From a virus, in IMG/VR virus record IMGVR_UViG_3300046836_000185, positions 1 through 23,551 of that record: a stretch of DNA of 23,551 nt; one strand, given 5' to 3'. Shown here in pieces: positions 2,521 to 18,325 of this stretch. The notes under the pieces were generated by a model. It was not told the origin of the DNA and searched no databases. It saw nothing but the letters and a program-made list of their open reading frames with translations. Position 1 is the first letter of the stretch. The number at the start of each line of letters is the position of its first letter. The translations under genes and the position numbers were made by a program.

Positions 2521-2862
2521 ATGACGATAGCCATTGTCACGGCGACGATAGCCGCCCGCGGTACGATCACCCCCGCCGTCGCCATTACCGGCCCGATCAT
2601 CGGAATCATCATGCCGGCTGGTTGGGCACCGGCCGTGGTGGTCAGCGTGCAAGGTTCGGCAGACGGCGTGAACTTTTACGATCTGTACGATGGCGTGACG
2701 GCGAAAGAGCTTAGTTTCAACGTCAAGCAAAATTCCATGGTGGCCATCAGCCCGAACCGATTGTGCTGTTGCACCGCGATCAAGTTGCGATCGGGCACCA
2801 CATCAAGTCCGGTGATGCAGCCGATCGCTTGCCAGTTCAGCATCATCGTCCAAGGTCCGTGA
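2521..2862 (+). CDS. phage protein of unknown function, paralogue of 3447-3788
   Basis: 113 aa, not assigned to a named family. It aligns over most of its length with the 113-aa protein at 3447: shared features are a beta-rich SxDGxxxxDLY segment (SADGVNFYDLYDG here), an IKLRSGTTSSPVMQ segment, and a C-terminal AC(Q/K)F. The N-terminus is hydrophobic and rich in Ile/Ala/Thr, and it has three adjacent cysteines (CCC), which the paralogue lacks. Position between terminase and capsid genes suggests a head-associated or decoration role, but this is inference. A possible weak ribosome site (GAGG) precedes the ATG. Its last 60 bases are overlapped on the opposite strand by the HNH gene, so insertion of that gene may have altered this end. 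Confidence 0.7.
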   Translation: MTIAIVTATIAARGTITPAVAITGPIIGIIMPAGWAPAVVVSVQGSADGVNFYDLYDGVTAKELSFNVKQNSMVAISPNRLCCCTAIKLRSGTTSSPVMQPIACQFSIIVQGP

Positions 2863-3348
2863 TCGTCTGTTGTGGGTTTGCTCCAGTGGGGTGGCCCACC
2901 GCACATTACCGGGTTCGTAATTTCCGTTGTTGTCTATGCGGTCGATTGACAGGCCTTTGTGCGGGCGCTCACCAACATCGGCAAGGAAATTGGGAAAACT
3001 GTTGCTCCATCGCTCACAGACACTGATGCCGCGAGCGCCATAGTTTTTATATTGCTGAGCTTTTGGGTTGTTGCATCGAGAAAGCATCGAGGTCCAGACG
3101 TGATAGATCGGATGGTTTTTTGTCCCGCCGAAACTGGTGTAACCGTGACGATAGTTTCCACTGTACTTACGGCAACCACATGAAGTGGTATTGCCGGACT
3201 GAAGTCCGGTCGCGCTGGGACTGCTGGATTGTCCGCAATCACATTGGCATAGCCAATAGACGCGACCACGAGCATCGGTTTTGTTGGCCCGTCGAACGAC
3301 AACAAGCCGACCGAAGCGCTGTCCTGTGAGATCAACCAATTTGGGCAT
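2803..3348 (-). CDS. HNH-type (homing-like) endonuclease, antisense
   Basis: 181 aa, one of two genes on the minus strand. The N-terminus LVDLTGQRFGRLVVVRR is followed by a Cys cluster (C34, C36, C38, C57, C59; CQCDCG and CGC) that probably binds zinc. The middle has HPIYHVWTSMLSRCNNP and YKNYGARGISVCERW. The C-terminal nuclease-like core is SIDRIDNNGNYEPGNVRWAT, ending in EQTHNRR. This is a common architecture in free-standing phage endonucleases. A GGGAGG sits just upstream of its ATG on the minus strand. It lies between two paralogous genes, overlaps the 3' end of the first by 60 bases, and its region is visibly less GC-rich than neighbours. All this fits a selfish insertion. Whether it still cuts DNA cannot be told from sequence. 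Confidence 0.85.
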   Translation of the reverse strand: MPKLVDLTGQRFGRLVVVRRANKTDARGRVYWLCQCDCGQSSSPSATGLQSGNTTSCGCRKYSGNYRHGYTSFGGTKNHPIYHVWTSMLSRCNNPKAQQYKNYGARGISVCERWSNSFPNFLADVGERPHKGLSIDRIDNNGNYEPGNVRWATPLEQTHNRRSRTLDDDAELASDRLHHRT

Positions 3349-8938: not shown

Positions 8939-9792
8939 CCGCCCATCTCGTCGCCGACGAAACAGGACTCGTCCACGCGACTGATCAAAGTGGCAAGGTT
9001 CATACCAACCACGGCCATCCGATCGTCGGCACGCTGACGGATGCCACGGGAACGCTGGCGGCGACCGAAGCGCGCGACGCTGCAGCTATCGCCGGCCTGG
9101 TCGGCCTCATCGGTGGGCTGGCTGCGACAGACGGCGCGGATGTTGCTGCATTCAGCGGACTGGCCGGCGCCAAGGGCACGCTTGTTGCAACGGAAGGCGC
9201 TGACACGGCTGCCTTCGCGGGCACGGTTGCGGCGCCTGCCATTACGGGCACGCTCGCCGCAACGGAAGCGCCGGATGTCTTTGCTGCGACCGGCATCGTT
9301 GCGTCGGCCGGCGAGATTGTCGGCGTGCTGGCGGCGACCGAGGCGGCCGACGCTGCGGCATTCGCCGGTGCTGTCGAGCAGGCACCCGTTATCGGTGCCG
9401 GCGGCGGCGGCGCCTACTATCGGCCCGCGCGGCCATTGCCAGTCGTGGGCTACGGCGAAGGCATCCTGCCCCAGCTCGAGGGCGAGGCGCATGGCGTCGT
9501 CGTCGCTGCCAGCAACGCAACGGCGCTGTTGCCCGGCTTTGTCGCCGCCGCGGCTGGCTCGGCTGGCGCTGCCGGTTCCAGTGCGGCCCTGCTCGTGCTC
9601 AAGGCGGCAGCGAGCGGCGAACGTGGCGCAAGAGGATCGACCGATGCGGTGCTCGATTGCCGGGGCGCGGGCCTAGGCACGGCCGTTGCCTGCGGCCGAG
9701 CCTCGGGCGCGATTGCCAAGCTCGAGGCCAACGCGATCGGCCGGTACGACGACGACGAGGCCGCCGCTATCGTATGGCTGCTGGCAGCATGA
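8935..9792 (+). CDS. repeat-containing phage protein, probable virion surface component
   Basis: 285 aa. After a short N-terminus (HLVADETGLVHATDQSGKVH), residues 40-154 are five imperfect repeats of 21-25 residues with the core (T/G/V)L(A/V)AT(E/D)xxDxxAxxG. Then a glycine-rich hinge (GAGGGGAYYRPARPLPVV) leads to a C-terminal Ala/Gly-rich domain ending in YDDDEAAAIVWLLAA. The repeats look like short beta units and vary mainly in the loop after the core. Repeat proteins of this type occur in rhizobial prophages near tail or head-fibre genes. Function unknown; surface exposure and adhesion are reasonable inferences. Overlaps the collagen-like gene by ATGA. Confidence 0.72.
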   Translation: MTAHLVADETGLVHATDQSGKVHTNHGHPIVGTLTDATGTLAATEARDAAAIAGLVGLIGGLAATDGADVAAFSGLAGAKGTLVATEGADTAAFAGTVAAPAITGTLAATEAPDVFAATGIVASAGEIVGVLAATEAADAAAFAGAVEQAPVIGAGGGGAYYRPARPLPVVGYGEGILPQLEGEAHGVVVAASNATALLPGFVAAAAGSAGAAGSSAALLVLKAAASGERGARGSTDAVLDCRGAGLGTAVACGRASGAIAKLEANAIGRYDDDEAAAIVWLLAA

Positions 9793-10526
9793 CTTCTCGC
9801 CCGGAATATTCGCTGCTTGAAGGGCTGAGTACCTGCCTGACGATGGCGCAACGCGCGCTCGTCGAGGTGCGGGCGCTCGCGCGCATTCCGGGGCCCGAGG
9901 GCAAGCGCGGCGCTGCCGGCGAGCGCGGGGAAGCCGGTAAACCTGGACCCGCAGGGCCGGCCGGGCGTGCCGGCATCGATGGCAAGGATGGCGAGACGGG
10001 GCCGCAGGGCAAGCCGGGCAGCCTGCCGGTGGTGCGCGATTGGGAACCCGACCTCGTCCATTACGCGGGCGCCGTCGTCGTCCATGCCGGCGCCACCTGG
10101 CAAGCCGCCCGCGACACCGGGCAGGCGCCGGGACATGCGGACTGGATCTGTGTGGCGCGACCCGGCCGCGATGCTGTGCTGCCGAAGGTGCGCGGCACCT
10201 GGAGCGAGGTCGAGACCTATGCGGCGCTCGACATCGTCGCGCTCGGCGGCTCGAGCTTCATTGCCCGCCGCGCGGCGCCTGGCCCATGCCCGGGTGAGGG
10301 CTGGCAACTGATCGCCTCAGCGGGCAAGCCCGGCCGACCGGGACCAAAGGGCGATCCAGGTGAGACGGGTTCACGCGGGCTGCCAGGACCGGCGGCACCG
10401 CTGATTGTCGGTTGGACGATCGATCGCAAGACCTACACCGCCACGCCGATCCTGTCCGACCAGAGCAAAGCGCCGCCGCTCGAGCTGCGCAGTCTGTTCG
10501 AACAGTTTCACGACGAGGCGCGCTGA
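9789..10526 (+). CDS. collagen-like phage protein with carbohydrate-binding-like middle domain
   Basis: 245 aa; start chosen at ATG 9789 because it overlaps the previous stop and the upstream extension is a shadow. After an N-terminal helix (LLEGLSTCLTMAQRALVEV), residues 35-76 are 14 uninterrupted Gly-X-Y triplets (GPE GKR GAA GER and so on), predicted to form a trimeric collagen helix. Residues ~85-175 contain two copies of a pattern typical of small chitin/carbohydrate-binding modules (xxVHYAGAVVVHAGATWQA and GTWSEVETYAALDIV...GSSFIA...GWQL). Residues 179-202 are eight more triplets (GKP GRP GPK GDP). A short C-terminal domain (VGWTIDRKTYTATP) follows. Collagen-like segments are known in phage fibres and other trimeric surface proteins, so a thin head or tail fibre is likely. 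Confidence 0.8.
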   Translation: MTSRPEYSLLEGLSTCLTMAQRALVEVRALARIPGPEGKRGAAGERGEAGKPGPAGPAGRAGIDGKDGETGPQGKPGSLPVVRDWEPDLVHYAGAVVVHAGATWQAARDTGQAPGHADWICVARPGRDAVLPKVRGTWSEVETYAALDIVALGGSSFIARRAAPGPCPGEGWQLIASAGKPGRPGPKGDPGETGSRGLPGPAAPLIVGWTIDRKTYTATPILSDQSKAPPLELRSLFEQFHDEAR

Positions 10527-14652: not shown

Positions 14653-15120
14653 ATGGCCGACCTATTGGACATAGCACCGTCGACGGCGGTCGAGGTGGTC
14701 AAGATCGATGGTGCGCGTGTCAAGGTGCGCGGCGTCTCGGTCGATGCCATCGCGTCGATCGTCGCGCGGTTTCCCGAGCTGAAAATGCTGGTCAACGGTG
14801 GCTTGGGCGATAATTTTTTGCCGCGGCTGATCGAGGGCTGCGGTGCGGCGATCGGGCCGATCATCGCGGCCGGGTGCGGCCACCTCGCCGACGAGACCTA
14901 TGAGCAGCATGCCGCCAAACTGCTACCGGAGCACCAGATGAAATTTCTCAAGGCCATTTTCGGACTGACCTTCCCAAACGGGATCGGCTCTTTCGTCGAG
15001 GCGCTGACGAGCCTCATCGGCGGGGGCGAAGGGGCAAAACCCGTGAAGGTCCGCTTGCGGAAATCGCACTTGCCGTCGTCGCCCTCGGCCGAAGCGGATT
15101 CCCGCCCGACTATGCAATGA
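14653..15120 (+). CDS. tail assembly chaperone (gpG-like), zero-frame product
   Basis: 155 aa from ATG 14653 (AAGGA upstream). The first ~128 residues are well-formed: ASIVARFPELKMLVNGG, IGPIIAAGCGHLADETYEQH, and HQMKFLKAIFGLTFPNGIGS. The end of the ORF (KPVKVRLRKSHLPSSPSAEA) turns into proline/serine-rich, low-complexity coding typical of a frame left after slippage. The size, position before the tape measure, and the open -1 frame overlapping its 3' end fit the G/GT chaperone pair of siphoviruses, which guide tape measure and tube assembly. Confidence 0.8.
   Translation: MADLLDIAPSTAVEVVKIDGARVKVRGVSVDAIASIVARFPELKMLVNGGLGDNFLPRLIEGCGAAIGPIIAAGCGHLADETYEQHAAKLLPEHQMKFLKAIFGLTFPNGIGSFVEALTSLIGGGEGAKPVKVRLRKSHLPSSPSAEADSRPTMQ
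15022..15048 (+). promoter_or_regulatory. probable programmed -1 ribosomal frameshift region in tail chaperone
   Basis: The codons here read GGG GGC GAA GGG GCA AAA CCC in the zero frame. The candidate slippery step is at GCA-AAA (15034-15039), where the A-site Lys tRNA can re-pair perfectly with AAA in the -1 frame; the P-site re-pairing is poor, so this is not a canonical heptamer. C-GGG-GGC at 15021-15027 is a second possibility. After this point the -1 frame becomes strongly protein-like while the zero frame becomes low-complexity. The exact slip site is therefore uncertain, the shift itself fairly likely. Confidence 0.55.
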
Positions 15121-15269
15121 CGCTAACGCCGCGTCAGGTTGCGGCCTACCTCGATCTGGGCGCGCAGCTCGACCGGATCGAACGGGCGAACGATCTCGCG
15201 ATCACGGCGATCGGGGCGCAGGGCGATGCGAAGGCGATCGAGAAGACACTCAAGGAATTGGGCGGGTGA
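15117..15269 (+). CDS. tail chaperone T-region (50 aa alone, or end of a ~205-aa frameshift product)
   Basis: From ATG 15117, which overlaps the chaperone stop (ATGA), this reads 50 aa: TPRQVAAYLDLGAQLDRIER then NDLAITAIGAQGDAKAIEK. The same frame is open upstream to 14904 and, from about 15048, encodes PLAEIALAVVALGRSGFPPD directly before this ATG, very like the T-part of G-T chaperones in alphaproteobacterial phages. There is no ATG, GTG or TTG in this frame between 14904 and 15116, so that upstream part can only be made by a -1 shift from the 14653 gene. The fusion would be about 205 aa. Independent expression of the 50-aa form by coupling is also possible. Confidence 0.7.
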   Translation: MTLTPRQVAAYLDLGAQLDRIERANDLAITAIGAQGDAKAIEKTLKELGG

Positions 15270-15281
15270 AATGGTTGGGCG

Positions 15282-15503
15282 TTATCTACCACCCTTGCGT
15301 TCGCTGGCCGCGCGGCCACCGCAGCGATGACCAAGGGCATCGATGTCATTCGGTTTTTGGCATCGTCCGGTCGCAGATGCTGAAGTCGCAATATGATTGC
15401 CGGCTTGGTGCGGGTTTGGCTGGTGATTGGTCACCCTTCCATCACCACAAGCAGCCAGTGAAAGCACTAATCCGATGCCGCATGTCCAGCATATGAATTT
15501 CAT
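15282..15503 (-). CDS. small lipoprotein, probable phage moron
   Basis: 73 aa on the minus strand, inside a longer minus frame whose upstream part is a shadow of the 15582 gene. The start chosen gives a clear lipoprotein signal: MKFIC, hydrophobic GIGLVLSL, and a lipobox LAAC with Cys19 as the lipidated residue; Gly at +2 allows outer-membrane sorting. The mature part is short, polar, and ends with CQKPNDIDALGHRCGGRAAS, a two-cysteine motif (C48, C61) that I recall from small secreted proteins of Bradyrhizobium-like bacteria and their prophages. It is convergent with the tail chaperone gene (12 bases apart) and divergent from the next tail gene. Opposite orientation within a late operon suggests it is transcribed separately, as in a lysogen. 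Function unknown. Confidence 0.72.
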   Translation of the reverse strand: MKFICWTCGIGLVLSLAACGDGRVTNHQPNPHQAGNHIATSASATGRCQKPNDIDALGHRCGGRAASERKGGR

Positions 15504-15544
15504 GGCAATTTTGGTAGCCGATCCGGCAAAGCCCGTCCTGTCGT

Positions 15545-15574
15545 TTCGTGCCACACATTTGTTCATTCGTGCCA
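15545..15574. repeat. two 9-bp direct repeats, 21-bp spacing, between divergent genes
   Basis: TTCGTGCCA occurs at 15545-15553 and again at 15566-15574 (TGGCACGAA on the minus strand). The 21-bp period is two helical turns, so both copies would face the same side of the DNA. They lie in the 78-bp gap between the minus-strand lipoprotein gene and the plus-strand gene at 15582. An operator or activator site for the lipoprotein gene is a reasonable inference; no clear -35/-10 pair was seen. Confidence 0.5.
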
Positions 15575-15581
15575 AATTGAC

Positions 15582-16118
15582 ATGAACCTCGTCTTTTCCG
15601 CGCAAGAAGGGGCCATGCGGCAACTGATCGACGAGATCGAGAGCCAGATTGACGAGGCCAGGGCTGGCGCCGTGCAGGACGTGGCCGCGCTTGCGGTAGC
15701 ACAGGGCCGGGCGAATATCGCATCCGCCGGCTTTCCCGCATCGTGGCAGGCGGGGCTGAAGTCGAAATTCTTCCCGAATGAGGGCGGCGATCCGGCGGCT
15801 CTGATCTTTGATACCACGCCATTCGCGGGAGTGTTCGAGCGCGGCGCCACAATCGCCGGCCGGCCGCTGCTGTGGTTGCCGCTCGAGCGGAACCTGCCGG
15901 CGGGCATTCATACGCCGCGCGCATACGGAGGCAGGTTGGTGTCGGTAAACGTCGCAGGCAAGCCGCCACTGCTGTTCGACGCGGCCAGGCGGGAGTTGGG
16001 GCCGCTGTTCGTGGGCGTGCGCCAGGTCAATATCCGCAAGCGGTTCGATCTCTATCGCATTTTTGCACAGGCAGCGGCGCAGATGCAGGAATTCTATAAC
16101 AAACGGATCAAGGGTTAA
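15582..16118 (+). CDS. DUF6441-family phage protein, neck/tail assembly region
   Basis: 178 aa from ATG 15582; an ATG at 15615 (MRQLIDEIE) is an alternative start. Features include an N-terminal helix, FPASWQAGLKSKFFPNEGGD, AALIFDTTPFAGVFERGATI, PLLWLPLERNLPAGIH, and a late block LFVGVRQVNIRKRFDLYRI followed by EFYNKRIKG. These are the landmarks of the DUF6441-type proteins that sit just before tape-measure genes in many alphaproteobacterial prophages. Function is unassigned; position suggests tail completion or assembly. Its stop overlaps the tape measure start (TAATG). It is separated from the chaperone gene by the antisense lipoprotein gene. Confidence 0.75.
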   Translation: MNLVFSAQEGAMRQLIDEIESQIDEARAGAVQDVAALAVAQGRANIASAGFPASWQAGLKSKFFPNEGGDPAALIFDTTPFAGVFERGATIAGRPLLWLPLERNLPAGIHTPRAYGGRLVSVNVAGKPPLLFDAARRELGPLFVGVRQVNIRKRFDLYRIFAQAAAQMQEFYNKRIKG

Positions 16119-18325
16119 TGGCCACGATCAGCCAGCGCATCAGCCTCGATGGCGCCGAGCAAGTCAAGAAACAGCTTGCCGAGATCGGCGACGCTGGCGA
16201 AAAGTCGGTAACCCAAATCCAGACTGCCGCCGACAAATCGGACGTATTCAGCAAGCTCGCCGAATCGGCCGCGAAGCTGAGCGACGCGATTGCGCCGCTC
16301 TCGGCCGCGATTGCCAAGCTGACGGAGGCCACAGGCGGTGCCGCAGAGTCGGCGCAGAAGTTCGGCGAGGTTGTAGATGCGACCGCCGAGGGCCTTACCA
16401 AGCTCGCGGATGAAGGCAGCAAGGCCGCCGAAGCCATCAAAGCCATCGATGATGCAAGCCAGAAGGCGAACGAAAACGTTACGAAGTCGGCGGAGACTGC
16501 CGACAAGTCTTCAACTTCTCATGTCGGCCTCGCTCTCGCGGCGGTCAAGGCCGGCGCCGCGGTGGTGTCGGTCGGCCAGGCAGCGACGGCGACTGCCGCC
16601 GCGGTGGAGGGCGCCGCGGCGGCGACCACGACGGCCGGGGCTTCTATTATAGGGGCAACCGCGGCGGTCGGGACGTTCGCCATTGCTCTTGGTAGTGTAC
16701 TCGCTGGCGCGATTGGTGCGGTCGTGGCTGGCTTGGCAACCGTTTCTGCTGCGGTAGAGAAGGCTACCAACGAATATGAACAACTGAATCACACCCTGCT
16801 AGTGTTGTCGCAGACAACTGCGACCTCTTTTGAATCCTTACAACTCGGTACCGCGGCGCTCGAGCAGATCGGCATCAAGACGGAAACCGCGCGCAACGCG
16901 GTTGTGAAGCTCGATGAAACGCTGAAAGGTTTAGATCCTGGCGAGAAGCTCAAGGCATCGGCAGACGCGGTACTGCAGGCCGAGAAGGCGATGTTGGAGG
17001 CACAACTGGCCGCTGCTGGGCTTCGCGACAATTGGAGAGAGGCGGTTATAGCGGGCCAGCGCCTTGCGTTCGTCAATCAACAACTCGCCGATGGGCTGAC
17101 CGCACAGGGGCAAGCCGATAAGGCCGCAAGCGAGGCATCCACGCAATTGGCCACTGCCCAAGCCAATCAACTCGAGAAAGTCATTGCGCTCATCAAGCAG
17201 ATCGAAGCGGGGCAGAAGGGGATCCAGTTCGACGAGGCGACGACGGCGGCGACCAAGATCGATGCGCTCAATGTCCGGCTCAAACAGGTGAAGGATACGA
17301 CCGGCGACGCCCGGCAGGAGTTCTTGAAGATCATCGCCAATATCGCATCGCTCAAGGATGCCATTGCGTTCGGAGCGACGGTCGGGTTTTCCGCCGACGA
17401 CGTTGATCGCATCCGCCGGTTCGGCGGCGAAGCCAGCAAGATCCCCGACCTGTTCCAACGGATCAGCGAGTCCGGCGCGCTGATCGGCCCGGCGGTCAGC
17501 CAATCTCTCGACGAGATGCGCACCAGCACGCAGAACGTCGAGAATGCCTGGACACGGTTGATGGCGACGTTCGATACGACGGTTTTCACCCGGATCGACG
17601 CCGCCATCAGCACGACGTTGAACAACATCGCGGCGATGGTCCTCAACGCGACGGCAGCCGTTTTTGAAGCTGTTAATACGGCGTTCGATCAAATCGGGAC
17701 GCTGCTTGCTCATTCCGTCGAGGGCTGGGGCCTCATTTTCAGCAGCCTCGGCAGCATGATCGAATCTGCGTTCAGCGGCATCTGGGACAGTTTGACCAGC
17801 GGCGCCTCGGCGGCCATCAACATGGTCTCCGGCCTGATTGATAGGCTGATCGCCAAGCTCAACGCGGCGTGGGAGACGCTCAAGAACATCGTCGGGCTGG
17901 GCGGCAGCCCTGCCACCGGCGGCGGCGGTTCCGGCTTCGCGGCCGGCGGCCTGCTCGGCGGCAGCGGCAGCGGCACGTCGGACAGCAACCTCGCCTGGGT
18001 GTCGCGCGGCGAGTACATCACGCCTGCGCGGGCGGTGGCGCAGCCCGGCGTGCTGGCGTTCCTCGAGGCGCTGCGCCGCTCGGGCGGCAACCTAGCCGCC
18101 GTGCTCGACGGCATGGGCCGGTTTGCGCTCGGCGGCCTGGTGCGAACGCCCATCGCGATTCCGGCGTTCGCCGGCGGCGGCATGAACCATGTCACCATCC
18201 AGTTTCCCGGCCTGCCCGAGATTACAGGCTTGCGCGCGTCGTCTGGCGTGGTCGACGAATTGCGCCATGCCGCGGCGCTGGCGCAGGTGCGCTCGGGCGG
18301 CCGAAAGCCGAGCCGGTATTCCTGA
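16118..18325 (+). CDS. tail tape measure protein
   Basis: 735 aa, the longest tail protein in the window, directly overlapping its neighbours. Residues 1-130 are charged helical repeats (AEQVKKQLAEIGDAGEK and similar), typical of coiled-coil tape measures. Residues ~135-213 are a long Ala/Gly/Val-rich hydrophobic stretch likely to enter the host membrane during DNA entry. The middle is helical and polar. The C-terminus has the usual glycine-rich block (GGGGSGFAAGGLLGGSGSG) followed by LAWVSRGEYITPARAV, found in many siphovirus tape measures. At about 0.15 nm per residue it predicts a ~110-nm tail. No lytic enzyme domain is seen. Confidence 0.9.
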   Translation: MATISQRISLDGAEQVKKQLAEIGDAGEKSVTQIQTAADKSDVFSKLAESAAKLSDAIAPLSAAIAKLTEATGGAAESAQKFGEVVDATAEGLTKLADEGSKAAEAIKAIDDASQKANENVTKSAETADKSSTSHVGLALAAVKAGAAVVSVGQAATATAAAVEGAAAATTTAGASIIGATAAVGTFAIALGSVLAGAIGAVVAGLATVSAAVEKATNEYEQLNHTLLVLSQTTATSFESLQLGTAALEQIGIKTETARNAVVKLDETLKGLDPGEKLKASADAVLQAEKAMLEAQLAAAGLRDNWREAVIAGQRLAFVNQQLADGLTAQGQADKAASEASTQLATAQANQLEKVIALIKQIEAGQKGIQFDEATTAATKIDALNVRLKQVKDTTGDARQEFLKIIANIASLKDAIAFGATVGFSADDVDRIRRFGGEASKIPDLFQRISESGALIGPAVSQSLDEMRTSTQNVENAWTRLMATFDTTVFTRIDAAISTTLNNIAAMVLNATAAVFEAVNTAFDQIGTLLAHSVEGWGLIFSSLGSMIESAFSGIWDSLTSGASAAINMVSGLIDRLIAKLNAAWETLKNIVGLGGSPATGGGGSGFAAGGLLGGSGSGTSDSNLAWVSRGEYITPARAVAQPGVLAFLEALRRSGGNLAAVLDGMGRFALGGLVRTPIAIPAFAGGGMNHVTIQFPGLPEITGLRASSGVVDELRHAAALAQVRSGGRKPSRYS

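Follow-up and report, generated by a model that had tools for sequence, protein, structure and literature searches.

The window analysed here is a virus record of 23,551 nucleotides (23.5 kb), and the gene under study occupies the minus strand at a junction between tail-chaperone-like genes and a DUF6441 gene, after which comes the tape measure gene (Table 1). An earlier note had described a 73-residue antisense lipoprotein with a lipobox cysteine at residue 19 and two more cysteines, encoded between the tail chaperone and a DUF6441-like gene. The translation, MKFICWTCGIGLVLSLAACGDGRVTNHQPNPHQAGNHIATSASATGRCQKPNDIDALGHRCGGRAASERKGGR followed by a stop codon, agrees with that description, and the profile matches of the flanking genes confirm the location.

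Table 1. Features at the occupied junction (window coordinates)
Feature	Position	Strand	Evidence or remarks
Pre_tape_measure/tail-chaperone-like flanking gene	14653..15120	+	PF23789, E 2.4e-10
Second tail-chaperone-like ORF, short, flanking	15117..15269	+	phrog_13355, E 8.7e-13
Insert filling the tail-chaperone/DUF6441 junction	15270..15581	no strand	312 bp; in empty relatives, the flanking genes overlap by 4 nt or lie a few nt apart
Lipoprotein gene (cargo), 73 codons and stop	15282..15503	-	place and frame conserved, purifying selection
CGGRAAS domain, residues 46-73	15285..15368	-	phrog_14503, E 2.2e-6; phrog_3117, E 7.7e-6
Lipoprotein signal peptide, residues 1-19, lipobox LAAC (Cys19)	15447..15503	-	sequence and hydrophobicity
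Tandem-repeat element, ~39 bp, upstream of cargo	15536..15574	-	TGGCACGAATGAACAAATGTGTGGCACGAAACGACAGGA; putative promoter or operator
DUF6441 flanking gene	15582..16118	+	PF20039, E 1.8e-11

The minus-strand ORF is real, and purifying selection acts on its frame. Homologues with 42-57% identity to the window protein lie at the matching antisense position in four diverged relatives (L037, L040/L130, L041/L165 and L042/L172), and the minus-frame dN/dS against the window protein is 0.28 for L037, 0.23 for L130 and 0.42 for L172; the value for L165, 0.84, comes from a comparison with few synonymous differences. The competing frame on the plus strand (15266-15496), whose translation would have refuted the earlier note in its own terms, is not conserved and was rejected, as stops interrupt it in L037, L130 and L165. 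Thus, homologues in place, low dN/dS and a broken plus frame put the ORF beyond chance. Long antisense frames are abundant in GC-rich DNA, but a functionless chance ORF is barely conceivable here, given that place, frame, signal peptide and motif are all conserved, that dN/dS is 0.23-0.42 in three of the four comparisons with the window, and that unrelated phages carry annotated homologues.

The N terminus of the window protein has a lysine at position 2, a hydrophobic core and the lipobox LSLAAC with Cys19, which fits the pattern [LVI][ASTVI][GAS]C; the further cysteines are C48 and C61. The lipobox of L037 and L130 is LSVAAC, while the other two of the four in-slot relatives, L165 and L172, keep the hydrophobic N terminus and have lost the lipobox cysteine. 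Thus, the conserved property is that of an exported, membrane-associated protein, and the designation as a lipoprotein stands for the window protein, L037 and L130 but not for the family, to which the lipobox is not essential. In the window protein, signal peptidase II would cut ahead of Cys19 and the predicted lipoprotein would be lipidated, leaving in the envelope a 55-residue chain made up of a flexible linker together with the small CGGRAAS domain and its two cysteines. An AlphaFold model (pLDDT 59) defines the signal helix alone and gives no confident fold.

Judged by sequence, the C-terminal 28 residues (the protein ends in CQKPNDIDALGHRCGGRAASERKGGR) define an uncurated family of exported proteins. 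The invariant core of this family is C-x4-D-x4-G-x2-CGGR-x-A-x2-R-x-GG, that is, C48, D53, G58, CGGR at 61-64, R69 and GG at 71-72 of the window protein. The profile of phrog_14503, which belongs to the moron category, matches residues 39-72 with its positions 16-49 of 53 (E value in Table 1). No family was assigned in a Pfam and NCBIfam search with the window protein, and an NCBIfam cytochrome match, far under the cut-off, was put down to signal-peptide similarity. A PDB sequence profile search gave chance cellulase matches alone (E 1.6 and above), and a literature search for the CGGRAAS motif matched no protein.

The earlier note had pointed to a homologue search as a check on its reading and had suggested a likeness to small secreted rhizobial proteins; homologues exist both in the slot and well beyond it, and the rhizobial likeness holds. 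The family occurs in phages whose hosts are alphaproteobacteria, enterobacteria or cyanobacteria, on rhizobial chromosomes, and in fusions with nuclease and SH3b domains. Stand-alone small secreted versions are found in Rhizobium, Agrobacterium, Mesorhizobium, Devosia, enterobacteria and cyanobacteria. Among phages, TL-2011b-like and Klebsiella phages carry the domain in proteins annotated as "transmembrane anchored protein", and gp81 of Anabaena phage Elbi has it at its C terminus. The TL-2011b version, annotated as hypothetical, is present in 451 of 5426 complete E. coli genomes (8%). In a Rhizobium oryziradicis prophage, the domain gene is antisense and flanked by HNH and terminase genes, and in Agrobacterium vitis, it is flanked by DEAD helicase and GNAT genes; since members such as the latter stand among core chromosomal genes, the domain is not phage-specific. 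In larger bacterial proteins, it lies C-terminal to SNase (L282) or SH3b (L275, L276, L280 and L286), where Pfam confirms SNase in L282 and SH3 in L275 and the SH3b of the other three is assigned by likeness. L282, from a genome of the order searched, is a secreted SNase-domain protein with the CGGRAA domain at its end.

Loci with the flanking genes were fetched and their junctions measured, which gave 110 loci that contain both genes. Counted by haplotype, the slot is empty in 34, with a 4 nt overlap in most, and holds an insert of 300-650 bp in 24; the window gene is thus inserted at a point where related phages have the two flanking genes next to each other. The inserts encode about a dozen unrelated small-protein families, all on the minus strand, and they include the CGGRAAS lipoprotein, HNH-like proteins, secreted, signal-anchor or two-TM proteins, and, in L174, L115 and L133, an N-terminal module (FKF-C-W-x-WGIG) that resembles the one of the lipoprotein but is joined to other C-terminal parts. 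The commonest of the alternative cargoes, found in seven haplotypes, is an HNH-like secreted protein of 86 aa (L126, L132, L119, L151, L120, L123 and L124), whose match to Pfam HNH (E 6e-4) is just under the cut-off and which is a candidate periplasmic nuclease against incoming phage DNA. With a simple hydropathy measure as a proxy for SignalP, and with cargo ORFs picked as those downstream of the element described below, an N-terminal hydrophobic segment was found in 14 of 14 cargo sequences vs 7.3% of 317 control phage ORFs. Behind the CGGRAAS gene, the inserts of L130 and L165 (609-635 bp) have one more ORF on the minus strand, which in L130 encodes a transmembrane protein; cargoes can thus be stacked.

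Every one of the 23 occupied sites that were aligned has, directly upstream of the cargo, an element of ~39 bp that is missing from the empty sites. Its minus-strand consensus is TTGGCAC-N7-CAA-N4/5-TGGCAC-N7-CAAG, and the window holds a single copy. In a PWM scan of 2.18 Mb, all matches above 22 were either slot sites or lay upstream of exported or membrane proteins elsewhere (L242, L247, L249/L252 and L244), while the top score in 6 Mb of simulated sequence was 20.0. The copy in L242 lies between the small and large terminase genes, and its cargo is homologous to the slot cargo of L187. This goes beyond the earlier note: many exported cargoes can take the place behind the conserved element, and the window gene is one of them. 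A weaker match in the phage of L037 (L238:10160-10197, score 20.3, E about 0.11) is directly followed by genes for an excisionase-like HTH protein and a tyrosine integrase; if true, this copy would link cargo and integrase through one regulator. No copy was found before the integrases of other phages (G003 and G006).

Several identities were considered for the element. A consensus scan of 15050-15750 found no sigma-70-like promoter and no intrinsic-terminator-like site, although such a scan is no proof of absence. A sigma-54 reading of TGGCAC was rejected by inspection, as the TTGC that it needs is missing at the proper spacing. An ordinary host promoter was rejected after 397 genomes of the order had been scanned with a pattern for the element: there were seven one-mismatch matches, mostly within coding frames and with low PWM scores, and the element is not a motif common in hosts. 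A stricter pattern for the element, which was over-specified, gave no match. It could also be that the element is not a cargo promoter at all, but the end of a mobile cassette or a plus-strand element that restores the expression of downstream late genes after insertion. We regard this as unlikely. The element does adjoin a start codon, lying 7-13 nt before that of DUF6441 at slot sites and, in L242, 3 nt before that of the large terminase; it may therefore have a role for the gene on the plus strand, and no -10 box is recognisable. Nevertheless, the opposite, chaperone-side end of the inserts shows no common sequence, on which ground a transposon end was rejected, and in L247 and L249/L252, the distance from the element to any long gene that starts leftward is 190-280 nt, with exported genes close downstream of it.

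In a tree of TAC1 and DUF6441, the occupied sites form one clade with one empty member within it (L140), and the cargo types are interleaved, with CGGRAAS cargo at four separate places. The simplest reading is a single acquisition of the element followed by repeated replacement of the cargo, probably through homologous recombination in the conserved flanks. Three of the five related records that were fetched contain integrases, which shows that the phage group, apparently one of alphaproteobacteria, is temperate.

Morons of lambdoid phages of the HK97/HK022 type are extra genes that part two neighbouring genes of their relatives, run antisense to the late genes and vary in cargo. The window gene resembles them in all of these respects, but it lacks a recognisable sigma-70 promoter or terminator, one conserved tandem-repeat element is common to all cargoes, and all cargoes are exported. 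The members of phrog_14503 and phrog_3117 ("membrane associated protein", moron category; TL-2011b gp43 and the "transmembrane anchored protein" of Klebsiella phages) likewise begin with an export signal and share the C-terminal domain, CQ..sD..adGsRCGGRsA..RpGG, and their genes are antisense between late-gene blocks of temperate phages. However, the match is limited to the last ~34 residues; these proteins are ~50 aa long, Sec-secreted and without a lipobox, and they belong to another phage group and genomic position, in which no such 39 bp element was detected. The small secreted proteins of Rhizobium, Agrobacterium, Devosia and Mesorhizobium share a signal peptide and the ~28-residue domain (50-57% identical), but they are mostly non-lipoproteins, and some are encoded among core chromosomal genes. 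As a very small phage protein for which lipidation is predicted, the window protein also resembles T5 Llp, Cor and Rtp45. Llp and Rtp45 are small lipoproteins that bring about superinfection exclusion by acting on receptors from the periplasmic side and blocking them (PMC9586334, PMC12685063), and Llp and Cor have an intramolecular disulphide (PMC9586334). Unlike their genes, the window gene does not lie beside a receptor-binding protein gene, and neither the PDB profile search nor the Pfam, NCBIfam and PHROGs matches placed it in the Llp/Cor family by sequence. By analogy, it is possible that it works like Llp or Rtp45.

We consider it fairly probable that the gene is a moron-type cargo in a dedicated export slot of temperate phages, in which the element is fixed and the coding part swapped, with protection against other phages as the likeliest purpose. 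The earlier interpretation is partly supported overall: its proposal of a lysogenic-conversion (moron) gene is well supported as regards the type of gene, by empty vs occupied sites and by antisense homologues in other temperate phages. As for function, the slot genes probably change the surface of the infected bacterium, for instance, excluding rival viruses, and superinfection exclusion is the likeliest candidate for the lipoprotein; nevertheless, an anti-phage role taken by itself is possible rather than probable, and other roles in the envelope or in fitness take the remainder. Within the late tail operon, the slot would keep the regulatory element at one end while the coding part is exchanged among phages, and the element would drive cargo expression, including in lysogens. 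To judge by the N-terminal hydrophobic segment, every cargo family examined would go to the membrane or periplasm, where the lipoprotein would shield the lysogen or infected cell from other phages, with either the receptor blocked from the periplasmic side, as by T5 Llp, or DNA entry blocked. The HNH-like cargo and the SNase fusion suggest a second possible mechanism, in which the cargo would interfere with DNA entering through the periplasm, and together with the SH3b fusions, they fit proteins that act at the envelope or on such DNA. More tentatively, and with somewhat less than even confidence, we propose that one fixed cis element, bound by a putative regulator, controls whichever envelope protein sits behind it, that the cargoes are a swappable arsenal excluding other phages, and that the element also marks exported morons elsewhere.

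The cargo could instead be an exported host-fitness factor unrelated to phage competition, acting in envelope stress, peptidoglycan or metal handling, or plant-associated life. Near homologues are chromosomal in rhizobia, and the domain is fused to SH3b, which is frequent in cell-wall proteins; yet the fast turnover of unrelated cargoes in one slot, one of them nuclease-like, is a pattern seen more typically in conflicts among phages or between phage and host than with a fixed benefit to the host, and we place this explanation on the unlikely side. A late lytic accessory, with the antisense cargoes as lysis helpers or membrane remodellers, is very unlikely: the slot sits within the late operon and there is a holin-like match for one cargo, though a very weak one (phrog_198, E 0.087), but 34 relatives do without cargo in the slot, and the cargoes are mutually unrelated, mostly secreted rather than membrane-disrupting, and antisense to the late transcript.

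The ~39 bp element gives a sequence rule for finding exported accessory genes in the poorly annotated phages of soil bacteria, and if it marks exported morons elsewhere, in further phages too, as proposed above, it could serve as a handle for genome mining. In addition, cargo replacement at a single site is documented with matched empty sites, about a dozen new protein families are offered as candidates for superinfection exclusion, and an uncurated small-domain family of enterobacterial prophages is tied to rhizobial and cyanobacterial members.

Three further observations concern the same phages. The window has an HNH endonuclease gene antisense among its late genes (2803-3348, minus strand; phrog_374, E 3e-67), which is probably a free-standing homing-type endonuclease. 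At 9657-10526 on its plus strand, it encodes a phage protein with collagen-like Gly-x-y repeats (GKRGAAGERGEAGKPGPAGPAGRAG...). Runs of a GGCAN pentamer repeat (GGCACGGCTTGGCAAGG...) occur in several related phage genomes, namely G003 (45728-48732), G005 (29238-32790), G007 (26307-26669) and G008 (16412-16465).
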